DNA of 23,767 bases from a bacterium (GTDB lineage: Bacteria; T1Sed10-126), in contig PWOD01000010.1 of the NCBI GenBank assembly GCA_003557545.1, positions 1 to 23,767 of the forward strand, read 5' to 3'. A model generated the notes under the pieces. The model saw only the letters and a list, made by a program, of their open reading frames with translations. It was not told the DNA's origin and made no database searches. A program made the position numbers and the translations under genes. Positions 1 through 11,700 of the stretch are shown one piece after another (position 1 is the stretch's first letter; each line of letters begins with the position of its first letter).

Positions 1-72
1 GAATATTACCAGTGGAAAGCAAAACAGAACAAAGGAAAAAACGATTCTAAAAAAGAAAAGAAAGCAGCTTAA
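1..72 (+). CDS. 3' end of an unidentified lysine-rich protein
   Basis: Frame 1 is open from the window edge to a TAA at 70-72 and gives 23 residues ending KNDSKKEKKAA. The lysine-rich tail is typical of many unrelated proteins, so no function can be assigned. The gene runs convergently towards the minus-strand CARF-HEPN gene, so it is not part of that operon. The reading frame is short and could be chance; the absence of any stop before 70 is only weak support. Confidence 0.35.
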   Translation, partial: EYYQWKAKQNKGKNDSKKEKKAA

Positions 73-406
73 TGATGCTTTCGCCGGAGGACACTTTTAC
101 ACAATATATCGGACTTGACCTCATTATGAACTTGATTAAAAAGTTTTTACTCAAATTTCTACCATTTAATCAATATGTAAACAATAGAACAGCTGGTCGG
201 ATGAATTTTTCAAGGTAAACCAAAACCAAACCTGTCAAATTATTTTTTTCTACAGAAATACTACATAATGATTAAAATAGTCAGACCAGTGAATAAAGAA
301 GCACACACCAACAATTCAATAGAAGACTCACCATGGCAACAGCCTTATACAGGTTTTTCACAGAAAAACTGTAAAAACTTGAAATAATTGGAGGAGATAT
401 TAAGCA
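73..406. other. AT-rich intergenic stretch without a convincing gene
   Basis: About 330 bases separate the convergent partial gene on the left from the CARF-HEPN gene on the right. A 48-codon plus-strand frame opens at an ATG (72-74) overlapping the preceding stop and ends at 218, but it has no recognisable motif. I see no direct repeats or CRISPR repeat-spacer pattern. A weak hairpin near 349-372 is listed separately. Confidence 0.5.
349..372 (-). terminator. Possible hairpin after the CARF-HEPN gene
   Basis: The arms acaggtttttc and gaaaaactgt can pair with one bulge around a 3-base loop. The site lies 35 bases beyond the stop codon of the minus-strand gene, where a terminator would be expected. 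The stem is AT-rich with only a few G-C pairs, so termination is an inference and the support is weak. Confidence 0.25.
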
Positions 407-1717
407 TTAATCTATTTTTAGCGGCAAACCATATAGACCATCTAAAAACTCCCTGGCTTTGTTGTAAATTTTACTTGTGTTTATTGTATCTTCCCTGAAT
501 CCGCAGTGGGCAAGATTATTTCTGTATCGAGAAATTTTTGCCCACAGTCTTCTAAAATCATCCAAATCCGGAATGTCCTCAATCCAATCCTGTTCATCTG
601 GAACAAAATCAAGTATATTCTTTTTTTCTGAACTGTTTATATAATCATGCAGCATCTTATCAAAGGGTTCCTTGGTTTCATCATGCCTGGTAGTGAGCTC
701 CAACCAATTATCTTTCAACACCTGGTCGCCTGTGATTTCACTTTTCATGAATATTAACCAATTAATCATCCATTCTTTCATGAGAGAGATACCCTGCATC
801 ACCATATCGCGGTCAATCCAGTATTTTATCAGTCCAAGTTGTTTGGACAACATCTGTCTGGAAAGAATGGGATTTTCTGCTTCTGTTGTAATATCGCCGG
901 AGATTACCTGTTCCAGTTCCTGTCGCACATCCGAGGTTACATACTCAAAGGGAGGTGCCCATTTCTTGACCTCTTCCTCAGTTTTAACAAGGTTTTCATT
1001 AAAAACATGGGCCTGTTTCATTAACTCCAGTGGACGAGAAAGGTTGAACGCTCGTCTGAAATTTTTTGCCGCCTCACCTAACTGCTGCAAAAATTTTGCG
1101 CCTTCGTGGCCACTTGACCCTCTCCAGGACTGATTATGAATCTGCTGCAATTTATTACCGAGTGGCTGACCGTCTCCATACTCCTCTAAGCAGGTGGCAC
1201 CATGAATCCAGTCCAGCATATCAACCAGGGGACATAAATCTATCACAGGGCTCCGCTGTTCACCACCAACTTCAAATGCACCATACCACACACCCTCCAG
1301 GGGAATCTCCTTAACCTGGCGGATATAAGCAAGAACAGTGAAAACCACAAAAGGAAGTGAACGGAAAGCGTGAGTAATATCGAACAATATTTTTCGATTT
1401 TGAGGACGTTCCTGAACTGTTGCGGTAATGATGGCAAAAACTTCCCACAAACTATCTTCAGAATCCACATTTGGAATTCTTACCGGTTCAAGTGAATCAC
1501 CCAATTCCTGCTTGAGCTTATCCATGTGCTCCGTTTTAGCCGACTTTTCTGTGACAAATGCATAAACTTTTTGGGGTGAAAAAAATTCATTTAAAGCCAG
1601 CGCTATTAAATTGGTTGAGTATTCTTTGGTTTCATTTGGTTTCTCAATGAAATACGTTGTTTCTTTATATTTCCCGGTTCCCAGGAAAGTAAACAGATCA
1701 ACTCCGCTTTCATTCAT
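407..1717 (-). CDS. CRISPR-associated CARF-HEPN ribonuclease, TM1812/Csx family
   Basis: This 436-residue protein resembles the TM1812-type Csx proteins that accompany type III CRISPR systems. The N-terminal CARF-like half begins FTFLGTGKY (residues 9-17) and contains DITHAFRSLP (113-122), the family's signature segment. The C-terminal part carries RNNLAH at 399-404, a match to the Rx4-6H motif of HEPN ribonucleases. By family knowledge the CARF domain would bind cyclic oligoadenylate made by Cas10 and activate the HEPN domain to cut RNA. The ATG at 1717 is preceded, on the minus strand, by an AGAGGTG ribosome site seven bases away. The Cmr6 remnant lies just upstream on the same strand, supporting a type III-B origin. 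No Cas10 is in the window, so a source of activator is not seen here. The family call is strong; the activity and ligand are inferred. Confidence 0.88.
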   Translation of the reverse strand: MNESGVDLFTFLGTGKYKETTYFIEKPNETKEYSTNLIALALNEFFSPQKVYAFVTEKSAKTEHMDKLKQELGDSLEPVRIPNVDSEDSLWEVFAIITATVQERPQNRKILFDITHAFRSLPFVVFTVLAYIRQVKEIPLEGVWYGAFEVGGEQRSPVIDLCPLVDMLDWIHGATCLEEYGDGQPLGNKLQQIHNQSWRGSSGHEGAKFLQQLGEAAKNFRRAFNLSRPLELMKQAHVFNENLVKTEEEVKKWAPPFEYVTSDVRQELEQVISGDITTEAENPILSRQMLSKQLGLIKYWIDRDMVMQGISLMKEWMINWLIFMKSEITGDQVLKDNWLELTTRHDETKEPFDKMLHDYINSSEKKNILDFVPDEQDWIEDIPDLDDFRRLWAKISRYRNNLAHCGFREDTINTSKIYNKAREFLDGLYGLPLKID

Positions 1718-1838
1718 AAAAAAACACCTCTTTTTTTAATCAAGTCAAATAACCAGTTCATCTTTTTTTCAATCTGACCATATCACACTAAAATTAAAAA
1801 TTCCATAATACATCCAGAGTTTGTTTCTATTTTCTGTC

Positions 1839-2011
1839 CTAAGTTGAAAAATTTCCCTCCATAAAACGACCATATTCAACAGCTGTTTTGGCACCGCCGC
1901 CAATCCACTTAAGAGCCTCAACCAGCGCTTGCCTTAGGGTATCCTGGAGGGACGGAGGTTGATTATTGACTAACTGGAAGGTATCCTCAAAAGAAAAAGG
2001 GAGGGTTATAG
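1839..2011 (-). pseudogene. cmr6: C-terminal fragment of type III-B RAMP protein Cmr6
   Basis: The minus-strand frame ending in TAG (1839-1841) reads ALVEALKWIGGGAKTAVEYG near its end. This resembles the C-terminal helix and glycine-rich G-x-GAKT-x-x-x-YGRF motif of Cmr6, a RAMP subunit of the type III-B Cmr effector complex. Only about 50 residues can be Cmr6; an intact protein is several times longer. The frame runs back into the start of the plus-strand transposase gene, where it stops resembling Cmr6, and no continuation is seen to the right of the transposase. The exact breakpoint is uncertain because the left 29-base repeat (1949-1977) is in the same open frame. The fragment sits 121 bases upstream of the CARF-HEPN gene, as expected for neighbours in a former cmr operon. 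A short unrelated protein is the alternative, but the motif match is distinctive. Confidence 0.7.
1949..1977 (+). repeat. Left arm of 29-bp perfect inverted repeat
   Basis: The arm begins gggacggaggttgatt and ends gactaactgg. Its reverse complement occurs without mismatch at 2952-2980. Identity breaks immediately outside both ends. The arm lies 34 bases before the transposase start and within the open frame of the Cmr6 remnant. Confidence 0.95.
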
Positions 2012-2959
2012 ATGCCACGATTACCGCGTCCGGATTTCCAACATACATACCATCATGTCGTAGTTCGAGGGGTTGATGGCCTACCGATTTTTGATAGTGA
2101 CGAAAAAAAAGAACAGTACATAAATATAATGAAAGACGTTAAAACCACACATGATATAAGTATATATACGATCGGTTTTATGGATGAGCATGTGCACCAG
2201 TTTGTCCGGCGGAATAATCAATCAATGGGAATCTTTTACCGCAGGGTTAACGGTCGATATGGAAGCTGGTATAACAAACGTTTTAATCGCACGGGAGCGC
2301 TTTACGATGAACGGTATTATAGTTCGCTGGTTGATTCTGAAAATTATTTTCAAGCGGTCTGGAGATACTCCCAGCATCAAGAGGTAAAAAGTGGAAAATA
2401 TCAATCGGCAGCTGATGACCCCTGGAGCAGTGCACGAGTATATTTAAATCTGAATTCCCGCTATCACTGGATAGATTGGCAGGAAGCGCTGAATGAACTG
2501 GACGTCGGCCAGGGACATAGTGCGAAAAGACTGCTCAAAAAACAGGGAATTGAACAGAGCTGGCCGAGCAAAGAAGCGTTCCCTCACGAACTCTACAGAG
2601 GCCAGAGATTTTTGGCTGATAAAACATTCATTGAAAAATATATGCAGATCCGAAAAAGAGCTGTCAGGAAAAAACTACGGAAAAAAACTCCCATACCGTG
2701 GGATGATTTACTTAAAATTGCAGTTAAACTATCGGGGCTATCAGAGAAAACAATTTTAACCCCGGGGCGCAGCAAGAAGAAAGTTCAACACCGTGCAGCT
2801 CTGGCCTATGCCTGCCGGAAATACGGACATTTGCCGATCAAAGATATTGCAGAAAAATTGTCCGTATCACCATCCGGGGTCTCACGGATGATCAAACGTT
2901 TCAAAGAAAAAAATCACAAATTAAGAGCAGCCTGGGCCCGCGAATTTGAAGCCAGTTAG
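2012..2959 (+). CDS. REP-associated tyrosine transposase (Y1_Tnp/IS200-like, HUH)
   Basis: The 315-residue protein starts MPRLPRPDFQHTYHHVVVRG, matching the usual opening of the IS200-like Y1 transposase family. It has the metal-binding HUH motif as HVH at 60-62. Y119 in WRYSQHQEV sits where related proteins have RYIHLNPV and is the candidate catalytic tyrosine. The segment DDPWSS follows as in the family. A C-terminal helix-turn-helix around 275-298 (DIAEKLSVSPSGVSRMIKRF) is like that of RAYT proteins that recognise REP hairpins. GGGAGGG lies about 8 bases before the ATG. The TAG stop falls inside the right 29-base repeat. The gene appears intact, so the enzyme could be active. The family would act by single-strand cutting and joining through a phosphotyrosine intermediate. 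The substitution of LNPV by QHQE near the tyrosine is unusual. Confidence 0.9.
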   Translation: MPRLPRPDFQHTYHHVVVRGVDGLPIFDSDEKKEQYINIMKDVKTTHDISIYTIGFMDEHVHQFVRRNNQSMGIFYRRVNGRYGSWYNKRFNRTGALYDERYYSSLVDSENYFQAVWRYSQHQEVKSGKYQSAADDPWSSARVYLNLNSRYHWIDWQEALNELDVGQGHSAKRLLKKQGIEQSWPSKEAFPHELYRGQRFLADKTFIEKYMQIRKRAVRKKLRKKTPIPWDDLLKIAVKLSGLSEKTILTPGRSKKKVQHRAALAYACRKYGHLPIKDIAEKLSVSPSGVSRMIKRFKEKNHKLRAAWAREFEAS

Positions 2960-2980
2960 TCAATAATCAACCTCCGTCCC
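2952..2980 (-). repeat. Right arm of 29-bp perfect inverted repeat
   Basis: The arm reads ccagttagtcaataatcaac through cctccgtccc and is the exact reverse complement of 1949-1977. It covers the last codons and stop of the transposase gene. It leads directly into a run of C residues that forms the hairpin at 2978-2994, a structure the left copy lacks. Confidence 0.95.
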
Positions 2981-2994
2981 CCGTGATTTGGGGG
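2978..2994 (+). repeat. REP-like GC hairpin downstream of the transposase
   Basis: CCCCC (2978-2982) pairs with GGGGG (2990-2994) around the loop GTGATTT. A CTC at 2972-2974 may extend the stem with a GAG just 3' of it through an internal loop. REP sequences used by RAYT transposases are short GC-rich hairpins of this type, so it could be the transposase recognition site. It could equally act as a weak terminator, but no T tract follows. Confidence 0.5.
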
Positions 2995-3081
2995 AGAGAA
3001 GGTGCGAAAATTGGAAAAATTGGGTAAACTTATGCGGGTGTTATTTTATCTATTTTCGAACAGATAGAAAGGACGGTTAAA

Positions 3082-4557
3082 ATGCCGGATAGTTACAGTG
3101 AATCAGAGGAGTATCAGATACGCCAGGAGAAATTAGAAAAACTTGAACAACGGGGAATTGATCCGTACCCCCATAATTTCAATAAAATTCAGACAGTTGC
3201 GGAGGCCGTCGATCTGTTTGTCGACGACCCGGATGAGGAGCTGGGAGAAACCGTCAAGGTCGCCGGACGTATAAGACGGCGGCGGCTGCACGGCAAAGCT
3301 GCCTTTGCCGACCTGGTTGATCACAGCGGACAGATACAGCTCTACCTATCGGCCCGTTATCTGGACGACTCGGAGCAGTTTGATCTATTCAACGAACTGC
3401 TTGATATTGGCGATTTTATCGGTGTCCAGGGGGAGCTTTTTAAAACCAATGAAGGTGAAATATCGGTTGTTGTGCGAAATTTTAAAATTCTCAGCAAGGG
3501 TCTTCGACCACTGCCCGAGAAGTTCCACGGATTAAAAGATACAGAACTTCGTTACCGTAAAAGATACCTTGACCTGCTGGATAATCCCGAGGTTAGAGAA
3601 CTTTTTCTGCAGCGCAGTCAATTTGTTTCCGGCTTGAGAAACTGGCTGGAAAACCGTAATTTCATCGAAGTTGAGACACCAATGATGCAGACGCTGGCCG
3701 GGGGAGCTGAGGCCGAACCGTTTATTACTCATCACAATACACTGGATCTTGATCTCTACCTGCGAATCGCCCCCGAACTGTTTCTCAAACGGCTGCTGGT
3801 CGGGGGATTTGAAAAAGTTTATGAGATCAACCGTAACTTCCGTAACGAAGGTATCTCAACCCGGCACAACCCGGAATTTACGATGCTTGAACTGTACTGG
3901 GCCTATGCTGACTACAAGGAGATCATGGTCCTCACCGAACAGCTGCTCAGCTCGGTCATAGAACAGTTCAACCCGGAGTTGATCACCGAGTACCAGGAAA
4001 ACTCGATTGACTGGAACACTCCCTGGGAAAGATTAACCATTGAACAGGCTATTGAACGGCACACCGGGATAGAACTCAATTCTGAGATGTCGGTGGAAGA
4101 GATCAGAAAACTGGCTGAAACTAACGGTTATCAGCTGGAACCGGCTGACAGCAGTGAGGCGCAGATCTTTGAGCTGTTTGAAACAGCCGTAGAAAAACAA
4201 CTGATCGATCCCACCTTCATTATTGATTTTCCGGCCAGCCTCTCCCCGCTGGCTAAACGGCACCGCAATGCTCCCGAACGGGCCGAACGGTTCGAACTGT
4301 TTGCCGGGGGGCTGGAAGTGGGCAACGCCTACTCTGAGTTAAACGACCCCCGGGAACAAAAAGAAAACTTTCTCCGGCAGACGGAGGATAGCAGTAAAAT
4401 CGACAGCGATTATATTGAAGCCCTCGAATACGGAATGCCCCCGGCCGGCGGGCTGGGCCTGGGTATTGACCGACTGGTGATGCTGTTAACCAATTCTGCC
4501 AGCATCCGGGATGTCATTCTTTTCCCACTCCTGCAACCGCTATCCCGGGAGGACTGA
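3082..4557 (+). CDS. lysS: Lysyl-tRNA synthetase, class II
   Basis: This 491-residue enzyme charges tRNA-Lys with lysine in the cytoplasm. An OB-fold anticodon-binding domain covers about 55-140 and is followed by ELRYRKRYLDLL (155-166), diagnostic of LysS. Class II motif 1 lies around FIEVETPMM (194-202), motif 2 around FRNEG (253-257) with RHNPEFTMLELYWAY, and motif 3 at GLGLGIDR (457-464) with IRDVILFP. The length is normal for bacterial LysS. The ATG has an AAGGA about 10 bases upstream. The stop TGA (4555-4557) abuts the ATG of the next gene, so lysS probably heads an operon with the lipoprotein-release transporter. The gene begins about 100 bases after the transposase unit and is intact. 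Confidence 0.98.
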   Translation: MPDSYSESEEYQIRQEKLEKLEQRGIDPYPHNFNKIQTVAEAVDLFVDDPDEELGETVKVAGRIRRRRLHGKAAFADLVDHSGQIQLYLSARYLDDSEQFDLFNELLDIGDFIGVQGELFKTNEGEISVVVRNFKILSKGLRPLPEKFHGLKDTELRYRKRYLDLLDNPEVRELFLQRSQFVSGLRNWLENRNFIEVETPMMQTLAGGAEAEPFITHHNTLDLDLYLRIAPELFLKRLLVGGFEKVYEINRNFRNEGISTRHNPEFTMLELYWAYADYKEIMVLTEQLLSSVIEQFNPELITEYQENSIDWNTPWERLTIEQAIERHTGIELNSEMSVEEIRKLAETNGYQLEPADSSEAQIFELFETAVEKQLIDPTFIIDFPASLSPLAKRHRNAPERAERFELFAGGLEVGNAYSELNDPREQKENFLRQTEDSSKIDSDYIEALEYGMPPAGGLGLGIDRLVMLLTNSASIRDVILFPLLQPLSRED

Positions 4558-5787
4558 ATGGCCTCGAAAAAGAAACCCAGCCTGCGTAACCGTGGGGAAC
4601 GGGTGTTTTTCCTGTTTCGAATGATTACGCGGTTTTTGTTTCGTTCCCAGAATGTCGGAGTACTCCCCTATCTCACACTGTTCGCGTTCATCAGCATCAC
4701 CATTGGGGTTGCAACTCTGATCATTGTGCTGTCAGTGATGAACGGTTTTTCCACAACATTACAGGACCAGCTTGTCGGGATATACAGTCCCATACGTGTC
4801 TATCCTCGCGGCGCGCGATCTCTCCGACTGGACAGCCTTAAAGAACAGCTTAAGGAGCAGCCACAGGTCACACAGGTTATCGGAGTAATTGAAGGAGAAG
4901 TTCTCTTCCAATCGGGTCCTGCCTCATATTCCGGAGGGAAAATTTTAGCCTACACAGACTGGCGGACAGATCGACTGCCGGTCGACCAACCAACCGGTGA
5001 GGGGATTCATCTGGGCAGTGAGCTGGCCCGCAGCCTCTGGGTAGGAGAAGAGGATGAACTAACAATTATTCGACCGGATGCCCAGCGGACTCCGTTCGGC
5101 CTGCTACCAGCCGGACAAAAAGTGGCTGTTAAAGGGCATTTTAGAAGCGGCTTCCAGGATGTTGATTCAGCCCTGGGACTGGTTTCCGAAGAACAGGCGC
5201 GGCGACTTTTCAACCTTGAAGAAAATCTCACTAACTATGCCGAAATCTGGATTGCTGATAGATTCCGAGCCGATCAGTTAAAAACCCAGCTGGAGAAGCT
5301 GCTGGACGGTGAATACCGGCTGGTCACCTGGTCAGAGGCAAATCCTGCCCTGTTCGAAGCTCTACAGCTGGAAAGAACTGTCACCTTTATCGTCCTGGTG
5401 CTGATCGTGCTGGTGGCAGCAATAAATATTTTAAGCATGTTAATTCTATCGATCCTCCAGCGACGACGACAGATTGCCATGATGATGTCGATGGGCGCCA
5501 CACCACGGACAATCCTGGTATTGTTCCTGGCAGCGGGGATGCTAATTACGACCGCAGGACTGGTGGCCGGGTTCGGGATCGGACTGAGCGGATGCTACCT
5601 GATGGACAATATTTTTGTGATTGATCTGCCGCCGGTGTATCCAATGGACAGTCTTCCTGTCCAGGTTGATCAGTTCCACCTGCTGGCCATCGGTGTAGTA
5701 ACCTTTATCCTGGGATTCATCAGCTCCCTGTATCCAGCCTGGGCGGCCGCACGAATCGATCCGGCAGAGGTCTTAAGATATGGATAA
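4558..5787 (+). CDS. Lipoprotein-releasing ABC transporter permease, LolC/LolE family
   Basis: The 409-residue protein has the MacB/FtsX permease layout. One membrane segment lies at about 38-62 (YLTLFAFISITIGVATLIIV), then a periplasmic domain of roughly 210 residues. Three further membrane segments follow near 275-298, 318-345 and 372-396. It ends [20 protein letters not shown], the typical C-terminus of LolC/LolE. In LolCDE the permease extracts mature lipoproteins from the inner membrane and passes them to LolA. Only one permease gene is present, so it may work as a homodimer, as proposed for bacteria with a single LolC/E protein. The start directly follows the lysS stop, and the last 8 bases overlap the ATPase gene, which points to translational coupling. 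A related export permease is the alternative. Confidence 0.88.
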   Translation: MASKKKPSLRNRGERVFFLFRMITRFLFRSQNVGVLPYLTLFAFISITIGVATLIIVLSVMNGFSTTLQDQLVGIYSPIRVYPRGARSLRLDSLKEQLKEQPQVTQVIGVIEGEVLFQSGPASYSGGKILAYTDWRTDRLPVDQPTGEGIHLGSELARSLWVGEEDELTIIRPDAQRTPFGLLPAGQKVAVKGHFRSGFQDVDSALGLVSEEQARRLFNLEENLTNYAEIWIADRFRADQLKTQLEKLLDGEYRLVTWSEANPALFEALQLERTVTFIVLVLIVLVAAINILSMLILSILQRRRQIAMMMSMGATPRTILVLFLAAGMLITTAGLVAGFGIGLSGCYLMDNIFVIDLPPVYPMDSLPVQVDQFHLLAIGVVTFILGFISSLYPAWAAARIDPAEVLRYG

Positions 5788-6487
5788 AACTATTCTTAGG
5801 GCAGAAAATATAAACCATTCATATCGCCCCGACAGACCGATACTCCAGGAGATAAATCTAACGCTTAACCAGGGTGAAGCGATAGCCATCCAGGGACCAT
5901 CAGGAGTCGGCAAGACAACCCTGCTGGAAATCCTTGGAACAATGCGCTCACCCAGCAGCGGCCAGGTGAAAATCATGGGAGAAAATGTTTATGCCGGTGA
6001 TCGTCGCCAGCAGGCATTGATCCGCGGGAACTGGTTAGGCTTTGTTTTCCAGGAAGCACTTCTGCTGCCGGACCTGACCATCTGGGAAAACTGCCGTCTG
6101 GCGGTGGACCTGGCCGGACGGCACTGGAGTAGTAAACAGATCTACGCCCGGTTTGAAGAACTGATCAGTTTACTGGGATTAAATCCAGAGCGACGAGCTG
6201 ATTATCCAGCCCAGTTCTCCACCGGCGAAAGACAGCGGATAGCCATTGTCCGGGCCCTGATCCACAAACCCCGGCTGCTAATTGCTGACGAACCAACCGG
6301 TAATCTTGATCACCGGGCAAGTTCACAGCTGATCGACCTGTTAACCCCACTGGTCCAACAGCAGCAGGTGGGGATGATTATCGCCACTCACGACCCGGTG
6401 ATGGCAAACTCAATTAAAAATCTTTACGTACTTGAAGAAACTTTATTAAAATCTTCTAACATCCAAACTAAAGAAAGGAGTGACTGA
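5780..6487 (+). CDS. Lipoprotein-releasing ABC transporter ATPase, LolD-like
   Basis: This 235-residue ATP-binding subunit would power the adjacent LolC/E-like permease at the inner membrane. Walker A is GPSGVGKTT (39-47), the Q-loop glutamine is Q91, Walker B is [12 protein letters not shown] (166-177) and the switch histidine is H204. The ABC signature reads STGERQR (147-153) rather than the usual SGGERQR, a mild change also seen in functional ABC proteins. The EPTGNLD sequence is typical of the MacB/LolD/FtsE group. The gene overlaps the permease by 8 bases and ends 5 bases before ilvE. Confidence 0.9.
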
Positions 6488-6492
6488 CTACC

Positions 6493-7371
6493 ATGTCGTC
6501 ACTATCAATCTGGTTAGACGGTAAGTTTGTTCCTGAAGAAGATGCAAAAATTAGTATCTTTGACCACGGTTTACTTTACGGAGATGGTGTATTTGAAGGA
6601 ATCAGAGCCTATGGAGGAACTGTTTTCAAACTCAAAGAACATATCGACAGACTGTACAAATCAGCCCGGGTTATTAAACTAAAAATTCCTCTTTCACCGG
6701 ACGAAATGACCGAGGCAGTACTTGAATCCTGCCGGCGCAACCAGGTGGAAAACGGCTATATCAGACTGGTCGTCACCCGGGGCCGGGGTGATTTGGGTCT
6801 GGATCCCCAGAAATGTCCCAAACCGACCATCTTCATCATTGCCGCCGATATCGAACTATATCCCGAAGAGGCCTACACCAAAGGCTTAAAACTGGTTACT
6901 GTCCCTACCCGGCGAAATCTTGCTGAATCGGTCAATCCACGAATTAAATCTCTTAACTACCTCAACAATATTATGGCCAAGATGGAAGCTCATCAGGCCG
7001 GGGCCAAAGAGGGTATCATGTTAAACGACCAGGGTTATGTGGTGGAATGCACAGGGGACAACATCTTTATTATCGAATCCCTTAAAAAACTGCGCACCCC
7101 CCCACCCTACATGGGAGCCCTGGAGGGCATAACCAGGCAGACCTTAATGGATATAGCCGAAGCCAGTGGTTTTGACGTGATTGAAGAACCACTCAACCGG
7201 TACGATTTATATGTTGCCGACGAATGTTTTGTAACCGGCACGGCCGCTGAGGCTCTCCCGGTTATTGAAATAGATGGACGGGAGATCAACGGCGGCAAAC
7301 CGGGACCACTAACCCGGGAGTTGATCGACAAGTTCCGTAATTCTGTCTGTGATTACGGCACACCAATATAA
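6493..7371 (+). CDS. ilvE: Branched-chain amino acid aminotransferase (class IV)
   Basis: The 292-residue protein is a PLP-dependent fold-type IV aminotransferase, most like IlvE, which interconverts branched-chain keto acids and Leu, Ile and Val with glutamate. It has FDHGLLYGDGVFEGIRAYGG (23-42) and K152 in PRIKSLNYLNN as the PLP-binding lysine. GTAAEALPV comes near the C-terminus. D-amino-acid aminotransferase and ADC lyase share this fold, but EGIRAY and the length favour IlvE. AAAGGAG lies 12 bases before the ATG, overlapping the end of the ATPase gene, so the two are probably co-transcribed. No biosynthetic partner genes are nearby. Confidence 0.9.
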   Translation: MSSLSIWLDGKFVPEEDAKISIFDHGLLYGDGVFEGIRAYGGTVFKLKEHIDRLYKSARVIKLKIPLSPDEMTEAVLESCRRNQVENGYIRLVVTRGRGDLGLDPQKCPKPTIFIIAADIELYPEEAYTKGLKLVTVPTRRNLAESVNPRIKSLNYLNNIMAKMEAHQAGAKEGIMLNDQGYVVECTGDNIFIIESLKKLRTPPPYMGALEGITRQTLMDIAEASGFDVIEEPLNRYDLYVADECFVTGTAAEALPVIEIDGREINGGKPGPLTRELIDKFRNSVCDYGTPI

Positions 7372-7504
7372 GGGTTTTTCCATCCAGAAACAGATAACCA
7401 ATATCTGACGGAATAAAACCAGGGTTCAGCCTGTTCTTATAGGAGCTACTAAAAATAACCTGTCAGGGAACAGGGTTAATTTCTTATAAATGGATTGATT
7501 CACT
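7372..7504 (+). promoter_or_regulatory. Leader region before mcsA with small hairpin
   Basis: This 133-base gap separates ilvE from the mcs genes. CAGATA (7391-7396) and TATCTG (7402-7407) form a perfect 6-bp stem with a 5-base loop. CCTGTTC (7430-7436) and GAACAGG (7468-7474) are complementary over a longer loop. TATAAA at 7485-7490 resembles a -10 box, but I find no good -35 at the right distance. I see neither CtsR heptad repeats nor a CIRCE element. A promoter here is plausible but unproven. Confidence 0.3.
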
Positions 7505-8008
7505 ATGAAGTGTGAACATTGCAAATCAGCCGAAGCAACGCTGCATCATGTTCTGGTGAAAGATAACAAGGTACTGCATCACCACCTCTGCGAAGCCTGT
7601 GCGAAAAAACTCAAACAGGCCCAGGGGTTTGATAAAGCCAATCCGATTGGAGCCGCCCTGGCCGGGCTACAGGACGATGATGAACTGGCCTCAACCGCCA
7701 ACTGTTCGAACTGCGAGGCGGAACTGACAGATTTTCTCAGCTCCGGCCGGTTTGGCTGTGCGGACTGTTACAGTTCCTTTGCTGAAGATATTGAACCGTT
7801 GATCAAAAGAATCCATGGGAGCGACAGGCATGCCGGTAAGGGTAGCAGTCTGACAACAAGCTCCGCACTACCGGAAAACCAACAACTCCAGCTGCTGGAA
7901 AAACAGCTGGAAAAAGCAGTCGCCCTGGAGGATTATGAAGAAGCGGCCCTTTTGCGAGATGAAATCTTTAAACTGAAAGAACAGGATTCAGATGACAATA
8001 CCAATTGA
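7505..8008 (+). CDS. mcsA: McsA: zinc-finger activator of the McsB arginine kinase
   Basis: The 167-residue protein has two pairs of CxxC motifs: C3/C6 with C29/C32, and C67/C70 with C85/C88. These are the expected zinc sites of McsA. A C-terminal UVR motif occupies about 131-160 (LEKAVALEDYEEAALLRDEI). In Firmicutes McsA binds and activates the protein arginine kinase McsB and helps deliver substrates to ClpC. The gene overlaps mcsB by 17 bases, so the two are likely translationally coupled. The ribosome site is poor (only a GGA about 10 bases upstream of the ATG), although the start is fixed by MKCEHC. Confidence 0.92.
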   Translation: MKCEHCKSAEATLHHVLVKDNKVLHHHLCEACAKKLKQAQGFDKANPIGAALAGLQDDDELASTANCSNCEAELTDFLSSGRFGCADCYSSFAEDIEPLIKRIHGSDRHAGKGSSLTTSSALPENQQLQLLEKQLEKAVALEDYEEAALLRDEIFKLKEQDSDDNTN

Positions 8009-9047
8009 CCCCCATACACCCTCAACCTGGCTGAGAACTGAAGGGCCGGATTCCGACGTTGTTATCAGCAGCAGGGTGCGGTTTGCCAGAAATCTGCAAA
8101 ACTATCCGTTTGCCAGTAAAAACAGCCGGGAAAACAGGGAAAAGCTACTTGATGAGATTTTTTCTGTTATCCAGGAATATCCCCCGGGAGCAAACTGGAT
8201 TACCAGCCGGCTGGAAGAGTTAAGCTCAATCGAGAAGAACCTGCTGGCCGAAAGAAATCTCATAAGCAAACAGCTGTTAACGGAACCAGCCGGCGGAACA
8301 GCCTTTATTCCAGAGGAAACCCTGGGAGTAATGATTAATGAAGAGGATCACCTGCGAATTCAGGCGATAACCGCCGGTAATGATCTGGATCTGGCCCTCG
8401 CACAAGCAACAGATCTGGAACGTTTTTTTGATACCAGGTTCGAGTTTGCCTACGATGAAAAATGGGGTTACCTTACCTCCTGCCCAACCAACCTCGGGAC
8501 TGGATTCAGAGGCTCCATCCTGCTGCATCTACCGGGCCTGGTGATCACTGAAAAACTAAACCGAGTTCTGAACGCCATCTCTAACCTGGGTCTAACCGTA
8601 CGGGGATTTTATGGAGAAGGCAGCGAGACACGAGGATTTTATTTTCAACTTTCTAACCAGATCACACTGGGACGTTCTACCGAGGATTTCCTGGCCAGTT
8701 TAAAACGGGTTGGAGAGAAAATTATTTCGCACGAACGAGCCGCCCGGGAGCAGCTGTTAAAAAAACGTGATTTAGGGTTAAAAGATAAGATTGGCCGAGC
8801 TTTCGGTATTTTAAAATATGCCCATCAGATAGAATCTGAGGAAGCGATCGAGCTGCTCTCAATGTGTCGTCTTGGAGCGGACAGAAAGCTCCTTCCCGAA
8901 TTAAAAATAAAAAAACTGGACGGTTTTTTACAACTTCTTCAACCAGCCCATCTACAGCAGAGCGTTGGCACCGAACTGACCAGCGAAGAGCGTGAGTCCT
9001 ACAGAGCCCGGCTGGTGGAGAAAGAGTTTTCCACAACCCCGTCCTGA
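7992..9047 (+). CDS. mcsB: Protein arginine kinase McsB
   Basis: McsB transfers phosphate from ATP to arginine residues of proteins and so marks them for ClpC-ClpP. The 351-residue length matches the family. SSRVRFARNL (26-35), NEEDH (116-120), SCPTNLGTG (163-171) and RGFYGEGSE (204-212) are the conserved phosphagen-kinase-fold segments of McsB, including the acidic and arginine-rich active-site loops. SNQITLGRST follows. The arrangement mcsA-mcsB-clpC is the classical stress cassette, but the usual upstream ctsR is not seen here. The predicted product is cytoplasmic. No key residue appears to be missing, so it should be active. Confidence 0.95.
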   Translation: MTIPIDPHTPSTWLRTEGPDSDVVISSRVRFARNLQNYPFASKNSRENREKLLDEIFSVIQEYPPGANWITSRLEELSSIEKNLLAERNLISKQLLTEPAGGTAFIPEETLGVMINEEDHLRIQAITAGNDLDLALAQATDLERFFDTRFEFAYDEKWGYLTSCPTNLGTGFRGSILLHLPGLVITEKLNRVLNAISNLGLTVRGFYGEGSETRGFYFQLSNQITLGRSTEDFLASLKRVGEKIISHERAAREQLLKKRDLGLKDKIGRAFGILKYAHQIESEEAIELLSMCRLGADRKLLPELKIKKLDGFLQLLQPAHLQQSVGTELTSEERESYRARLVEKEFSTTPS

Positions 9048-9095
9048 GTATCTTATCCTCTGGTAGAAGATACCATTTCCAGATAAAAATGGTAT
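9048..9095 (+). promoter_or_regulatory. Two overlapping hairpins between mcsB and clpC
   Basis: GTATCTT (9048-9054) pairs with AAGATAC (9067-9073). ATACCATTT (9070-9078) pairs with AAATGGTAT (9087-9095). The second stem starts inside the first, at ATAC, so the two cannot form fully at once. A T5 run follows at about 9105-9109, too far from the second stem for a classic terminator. Mutually exclusive stems like these could regulate read-through into clpC, but this is an inference. Confidence 0.4.
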
Positions 9096-9177
9096 TATTA
9101 AGATGTTTTTGCAGATTATTGAATCATCAAGTTGACTATAAATCTATTCAACAATCCTTCTGAGGTGAAGCGTTAAA

Positions 9178-11700
9178 ATGTTTGAAAATTACACAGATCG
9201 GGCTCGTAAATCACTGCGTAAATCAAAAAATATCTCCCGCCGCACCGGCAGCCAGGAAGTCGAACCGGAACATCTGCTGATAGCTTTACTGGAGATTGGC
9301 AGCGGAATCGCAGTCGATATTCTCCAGGAACTGGGGATCGAACCACAAAAACTGCTGACCAAACTTACCGACCTCATCGACGTCAGCACAGAGACCGAGG
9401 CCGAGGAAAAGACTCCCCAGCAGCCGGATTATTCTCAAGCCCTCCAGAGAACTCTGTCGCTGGCGGAAAAAACAGCCCGGGAACTGGGCCATAATTATGT
9501 TGGAACAGAGCATCTACTTATCGGACTGGCAGCAAGCAAGAGTGGCCCTGTGGCTGAACTGTTTGACAGTTACAAGGTCACAGCCGGCCAGGTCAAAAAA
9601 CTACTGATCGAAATTCTCAACGAGGAATATGGTCTGGAATACGGTTTTGTTGTCTCGTCGGGGAAAAAATCATCCGAGGAAGGAACGGGTAAACGGAAAA
9701 AAAATAAGTCTAAAACTCCAACCCTTGATGCTTTTTGCCGGGATCTTACCGAACTGGCTCGAAACGACCTGCTGGACCCGGTAATCGGTCGTAAAAAAGA
9801 GATTGAACGGGTTACCCAGATTCTATCGCGCCGAAAAAAGAACAACCCCGTTTTAATCGGTGAACCGGGAACCGGTAAAACAGCCATTGTTGAGGGGCTG
9901 GCCAAACAGATCGTTAATGTTGACGTTCCTCAGGCTCTTTACAACAAACGGCTAATGGCACTGGATCTGGCACTGGTTGTTGCCGGAACAAAATACCGGG
10001 GAGGGTTTGAACAGCGGATGAAAAAACTCCTGGAAGAGATCCAACAGTCCCAGGAGATAATCCTATTTATTGATGAGATACATTCACTGGTGGGAGCCGG
10101 GTCGGCAGAAGGTGCAATCGACGCTGCCAGCATTCTCAAGCCGGCCCTGGCCCGGGGAGAGATTCAATGTATAGGAGCAACTACGCTGGATGAATATCGA
10201 CAGCATATTGAGAAGGACTCCGCTCTGGAAAGACGGTTCCAGCTGATTAACATCGACGAACCATCTACTGAAGAAGCGATTAATATTTTGCAGGGCCTAA
10301 AACCCAACTATCAAAACCATCATAACGTCAACTATTCAGATGAAGCGATCGAGGCGGCGGTAAAACTTTCTCACCGTTATCTTTCCAACAGCTATCTACC
10401 GGATATCGCCATCGACGTAATCGACGAAGCAGGCAGCCGGGCCAAACTAGAATTTTCCATGCCACCCCGTGAGATACGTGAACTGGAGCATGAGCTGGAC
10501 AACCTCCAAAATCAAAAAAGTGAGGCAGTTTCATCACAGGAATTTGAAAAAGCCGCAGCCCTGCGAGACAAAGAAAGCAAACTGAAAGAAGAGCTGGATA
10601 AAGTCAAGACAGAATGGGAGAAGAATGACCCGGAGCGGCCCGATATAGGTGAAGAAGAGATAGCCAAACTGGTCAGCGACATGTCAGGAATTCCGGTATT
10701 CAAACTAACCGAAAAAGAGCAGGCCAAGCTCCTCCGGCTGGAGGAGGATATTCACAAAAGACTGGTTGACCAGGCTGATGCAGTCAGTGCAGTCAGCCGG
10801 GCCATCCGCAGAGCTCGGACAGGACTTAAAGATCCCAGCCGGCCGGTCGGCAGTTTTATGTTCCTGGGACCCACCGGAGTAGGTAAAACCGAATGTGCCC
10901 GGGCCCTGGCCGAACTGTTGTTTGGTGATGAACAGCACATGATCCGGGTAGATATGAGCGAGTTTATGGAAAAACATTCTGTCTCCCGGCTGGTGGGAGC
11001 ACCTCCTGGATATGTCGGATATGAAGAGGGAGGTCAACTGACCGAACAGGTCCGACGTAACCCCTACTCGGTTGTACTGCTGGATGAGATTGAAAAAGCC
11101 CACAATGAGGTTTATAACATCCTGCTGCAGATATTTGAGGATGGGGTGCTGAGTGATAATCTGGGCCATAATGTCGATTTTCGCAACACAATCATCATTA
11201 TGACCTCAAACGTGGGGGCCCGGGAGATTACCAATGCCGGTTCCATGGGGTTTCGAACCGGGGATGAACAATCACTTGATTATGTCGATATTAAAGACCG
11301 GGCGATGACCGAATTAAAACGAAAATTCAATCCTGAGTTTATTAACCGGCTGGATGAAATAATTGTCTTCAAATCACTGACAAAAGAGGATCTGCAGGGA
11401 ATAATCGAACTGATGCTGGGCGAAGTCAACGAGCGGTTAAAGGAACAGGGATTTACTCTGGAGGTCGACCAGGCTGCCCGCGAATACCTGATTGAAAGGG
11501 GCTATGATCCAGACTACGGAGCCCGACCGCTGCGCCGTACAATTGAGCGTAAAATCGAAGATTCACTGGCCGAAGCAATCTTACGGGGACAGTTTAAAGC
11601 GGGCGGAAAAATCCTTGTTACATATGAGGATAACAGCCTTAACTTTGAAAAACAGCCCCCGCCGGATGATTCGGATGATGAAACTACGGATGAAAATTAA
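9178..11700 (+). CDS. clpC: ClpC ATPase, AAA+ unfoldase
   Basis: ClpC unfolds substrates and feeds them to the ClpP protease. The 840-residue protein has two N-terminal Clp repeats (about 5-140). AAA+ domain 1 has Walker A GEPGTGKT at 228-235 and [13 protein letters not shown] downstream. A middle region carries a UVR motif ([20 protein letters not shown], around 455-482). AAA+ domain 2 has Walker A GPTGVGKT at 564-571. MGF at 690-692 matches the [LIVM]GF loop that docks ClpP. The UVR middle domain identifies ClpC rather than ClpB. GAGGTG lies 9 bases before the ATG. The C-terminal tail is acidic. The gene follows mcsB by 130 bases and would receive phosphoarginine-marked substrates. No clpP is in the window. 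Confidence 0.97.

Follow-up and report, generated by a model that had tools for sequence, protein, structure and literature searches.

A complete csx1 gene and the tail of cmr6: the likely remains of a type III-B CRISPR locus

The stretch of DNA analysed here (the window; 23,767 nt) is the whole of contig C126 in a bacterial genome assembly of 2.15 Mb, which comprises 239 contigs and is 91.9% complete. Among 58 genomes drawn as relatives, one belonged to the same family (G001) and the others shared only the domain; the organism thus comes from a sparsely sampled lineage. Read from left to right, the window starts with the end of a multicopy repeat, followed by csx1, a cmr6 stub, a 29-nt repeat, a transposase, an inverted copy of the repeat and housekeeping genes. 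The features up to the first of the housekeeping genes are as follows:

1-121, plus strand: end of a multicopy repeat at the left contig edge, containing the C-terminal part of an open frame that stops at 70-72, by reading of the sequence
407-1717, minus strand: csx1, CARF-HEPN effector of the TIGR02221/TM1812 family, 436 aa, ATG start, frame free of internal stops and frameshifts
1839-1948, minus strand: C-terminal remnant of cmr6, about 36 codons plus stop, identified by Cmr6 profile matches
1949-1977, minus strand: left 29-nt repeat, perfect inverted partner of 2952-2980; Cmr6 homology ends here
2012-2959, plus strand: Y1 (HUH) transposase, RAYT-like, with a C-terminal helix-turn-helix (PF01797, 38.6 bits, cut-off 23)
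2952-2993, plus strand: right repeat (inverted partner 2952-2980; copies elsewhere) and a short hairpin
3082-4557, plus strand: lysS, start of the block shared with G001 (67% identical protein there) and boundary of the relic

The earlier note, made from the letters of the window, had described an apparently intact CARF-HEPN gene, and so we found it: both family and motif models matched the 436-aa frame above their cut-offs (TIGR02221, 103.5 bits versus 76.25; the DxTHG motif model TIGR02549, 34 bits versus 21). The PADLOC CARF2--CARF_HEPN match covered residues 8-428 (E 3.3e-89), and the proposed comparison with TM1812-type Csx proteins gave a full-length alignment with TM1812/TIGR02221 proteins. 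The CARF residues D113, T115 and H116 are kept in alignments with 5 and with 47 relatives; the HEPN R-x4-H motif, here RNNLAH (R399, N400, H404), is invariant in 48 sequences. An AlphaFold2 model made with the 48 sequences reached a pLDDT of 91 and a pTM of 0.88. Its best match among solved structures was Marinitoga Csx1-Crn2 (PDB 8y6z and 8y7g; Z 22.2 over 390 residues), whose structure is also known with cA4 and which has the same CARF-HEPN fold, the CARF folds being matched; the second was Sulfolobus islandicus Csx1 (Z 17.9). Identity to the Marinitoga protein is 18%, and a phmmer search against PDB sequences returned no match, though the fold matches. The window protein also differs from Csx1-Crn2 in having no fused Crn2 ring nuclease. 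Judged by sequence and predicted fold, csx1 is intact and its product is a Csx1; by analogy with its relatives, the CARF dimer would probably bind cyclic oligoadenylate, cA4 being the likeliest, and thereby switch on the HEPN RNase.

A csx1-type effector is present once in the genome; among the relatives found, the nearest shares about 36% identity with it, and viral contigs gave no relative. At 33 near-invariant columns the window protein has four changes (G84V, E89S, L132I and R314K), tied for the most among the 48 sequences. Third-position GC of csx1 is 0.40 versus 0.56 for lysS and 0.50 for clpC. The changes and the low third-position GC fit either relaxed constraint or a foreign origin.

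Upstream of csx1, on the same strand and across a gap of 121 nt, lies the cmr6 stub. The C-terminal Cmr6 fragment claimed at this place is real, and the strand was given correctly, but it is shorter than had been claimed: 1949-2011 is the 29-nt repeat and the 5′ flank of the transposase. About 1842-1948 is homologous to Cmr6, matching the final 25-40 positions of Cmr6 profiles, and the stop codon follows at 1839-1841; the minus-strand frame that ends at 1839 reads ...QDTLRQALVEALKWIGGGAKTAVEYGRFMEGNFST. TIGR01898 and several PADLOC Cmr6 models align to the stub with about their last 40 positions, at scores that are weak because the stub is short. An independent Cmr6 profile was built from 32 domain rows from related loci with the window excluded. 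Against this profile the 35-aa core of the stub scored 22.2 bits and was placed at the profile's very end; 20,000 shuffles of the core reached 8.4 bits at best, and intact Cmr6 tails, each left out in turn, scored 24.7-40.1 bits, a range that the stub falls just under. The Cmr6 match has thus held up, and at the level of sequence it is specific. Apparent Cmr6 homology to the right of 1948, toward the transposase 5′ region, was rejected: the iterative profile that gave it had absorbed the window, and a window-free profile matched the tail only. A complete Cmr6 RAMP protein is absent, and we found no continuation of cmr6 past the repeat or the transposase unit; where a complete cmr operon continuing from the fragment would have spoken against decay, there is the transposase unit and then lysS.

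An alignment-based scan of genome contigs located relatives of the effector at 80 loci (a single-protein scan gave none). In 20 loci, including that of Allomeiothermus silvanus, the end of Cmr6 lies <500 nt upstream of a csx gene on the same strand, and the 121-nt gap of the window is within the range of these 20. As the order Cmr6-then-Csx1 is common in III-B loci, the pair in the window can be taken as a real relic. In A. silvanus (L024) csx2, which has the same family, motifs and domain order as the window csx1, directly follows cmr6 in the operon cmr1-cas10-cmr3-cmr4-cmr5-cmr6-csx2; compared with this operon, the window keeps beside csx1 only the last ~36 codons of cmr6. Of the 52 relative loci with 6 kb or more of DNA upstream, 50 have a cas10 linked to the effector gene. 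The two exceptions are in Pseudanabaena biceps PCC 7429 (L084) and Methanospirillum (L066), and both genomes have Cas10 proteins elsewhere. A csx1 of the TIGR02221 family with no linked cas10 is unusual.

The unit of repeat, transposase and inverted repeat that adjoins the stub spans 1949-2993. Copies of the 29-nt repeat with 0-3 mismatches are present on contigs C14, C48, C69 and C189; at that identity the genome has no other copy of the transposase that lies between the two repeats. We call it RAYT-like because its score with the RAYT equivalog model NF047646, 34.3 bits, is under the cut-off of 80. The unit shares with RAYT units a Y1 transposase between inverted short repeats that are also present elsewhere in the genome; it differs in that the protein stays under the NCBI RAYT cut-off and only few copies of the repeat were seen. 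A second RAYT-like transposase, 45% identical, lies on contig C181 (L114, about 3120-4420) between its own inverted GGGTCAGACACTACGTTTTACG repeats, which are unlike those of the window; the units thus look like RAYT-type mobile modules.

On the right, 88 nt separate the unit from lysS. The block lysS-lolC-lolD-ilvE-mcsA-mcsB-clpC (names by sequence reading) is common to the window, where the conserved stretch is 3082-11700, and to G001, the sole same-family genome. Upstream of this block G001 has a fliD-like gene and no cas gene; its FliD protein has no match in the genome of the window organism. Either the cmr locus was inserted here in the window lineage or it was lost in the lineage of G001. 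As the 5′ part of cmr6 is absent beyond the mobile unit, simple insertion of that unit is not sufficient, and a deletion or rearrangement has to be assumed too. On the other side of csx1 the left contig edge is 406 nt away. The multicopy repeat at 1-121 has near-identical stretches on contigs C189, C54, C169 and C48, and would probably be an IS. Rfam gave no match within 1-3100, and plasmids gave no DNA match to 1700-3081.

The window was said to lack Cas10, a Cas7-like backbone and a CRISPR array, and this is borne out: none of these was found in it, array-like repeats included. The genome-wide search for Cas10 and RAMP genes that had been suggested ended likewise. No Cas10 (Cmr2) was found over the cut-off in the 91.9%-complete genome or in the window, and genome-wide there was no match to PF03787, the model of RAMP proteins (the Cmr1/Cmr4/Cmr6 backbone), or to Cas6 of PF10040. 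Csm1 and Cas10-palm2 models gave weak matches under the cut-off across the whole genome. The proteins behind these matches are a GGDEF protein (C203) and an RNase Y-like HD protein (C78), and both were rejected as Cas10.

Cas1 occurs once in the genome, on contig C155 (L012, 5.9 kb), where a type I-E set, cas6e-cas1e-cas2e, lies at 3673-5746 beside a TipJ-like phage tail gene. The GC content of this contig is 57% versus 42-47% in the other contigs read, and the set may be misbinned or prophage-borne. With its type I-E affiliation, phage tail neighbour and GC of 57%, this Cas1 was rejected as a part of the csx1 system.

We consider it probable that the window contains a partly deleted type III-B (Cmr) locus with a stranded and presumably idle effector. 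The locus from its 5′ end through most of cmr6 would have been deleted or relocated; the breakpoint would now be filled by the repeat-transposase-repeat mobile unit, with the multicopy repeat on the other side, and what is left over would be the final 36 codons of cmr6 together with the complete csx1. The order and mechanism of the deletion and insertion events we infer. Decay is supported by the intact csx1, the specific Cmr6 tail, the absence of type III partners from the searches, the synteny that starts from lysS and the changes at near-invariant positions. Counting against it are the genome completeness of 91.9%, the repeat and contig edge at which the locus ends, and the unbroken frame of csx1. 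The earlier note had itself read the locus as a decayed type III-B locus retaining an intact effector, and this reading survived every test run.

CARF-HEPN effectors normally answer to cyclic oligoadenylate made by Cas10, and we know of no source of activating cyclic oligoadenylate in a cell that has no Cas10. With no Cas10 cyclase, Csx1 would be idle; most likely csx1 does nothing at present, and it is probably heading for loss. Its open frame is no proof of selection or use, since the dead cmr6 stub also reads cleanly; the clean frames of the two suggest that the loss event may be recent. The window would thus show a type III-B locus in the course of being lost, its sensing and signalling parts gone and its effector persisting, in keeping with an effector that does no harm when there is no activator. 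Loci that stand apart from arrays make up a larger share in type III, 28%, than in any other CRISPR type (PMC5294841). Both isolated cas loci and systems in decay have been described before, and the window is a further example of ordinary CRISPR decay.

One could also suppose that the effector is in use, with a Cas10 complex encoded in unassembled DNA, on a plasmid or past the repeat at the contig edge activating Csx1 in trans. The assembly lacks about 8% of the genome, and the locus runs out into a repeat and the contig edge, so that a Cas10 may have been missed; besides, csx1 is intact, and the Pseudanabaena and Methanospirillum loci are cases of csx1 unlinked to cas10 in genomes with Cas10 elsewhere. 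Trans activation among type III loci has been suggested on the basis of statistics (PMC11229360). Still, the assembled genome yielded no Cas10, RAMP protein or Cas6 (PF10040), and its only Cas1 is of type I-E and is on a contig of deviating GC; we therefore regard activation in trans as unlikely here. Three outcomes had been considered for the effector in the earlier note: an orphan state and ongoing loss both fit the assembly, while action in trans with another type III locus is unsupported by the Cas10, RAMP and Cas6 searches of the 91.9%-complete genome.

It is improbable that the arrangement is an artefact, either a chimeric join of the relic and the lysS block at the repeat or a locus from another organism. 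The breakpoint repeat does have copies on several contigs, and the assembly is fragmented, with at least one contig of deviating GC; but the repeat is merely 29 nt long here, the transposase between its copies is unique at that identity, and gene order over the remainder of the contig agrees with that of G001.

Very improbable, finally, is an effector kept for a new purpose and answering a signal that does not come from Cas10: an intact gene in a genome with no detectable cyclase and the changed near-invariant positions (G84V, E89S, L132I, R314K) would agree with it, but there is neither a conserved new partner gene nor another lineage arranged in this way, and the neighbouring cmr6 stub suggests simple decay. 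If csx1 proved to be maintained in a cell with no Cas10 at all, the activating signal would have to come from elsewhere, but nothing that we found demands this; we give equally little credence to a CARF-HEPN effector under selection in a Cas10-free genome, be it through another nucleotide signal or as a stand-alone stress or abortive-infection RNase.

The P. biceps locus (L084, 988-11239) resembles the window: its effector belongs to the same family, and no cas10 lies closer than 10 kb. It differs in that its csx1 relative follows the BREX genes pglZ and brxL and that Cas10 is encoded elsewhere in the genome; it is the better candidate for an effector acting in trans.
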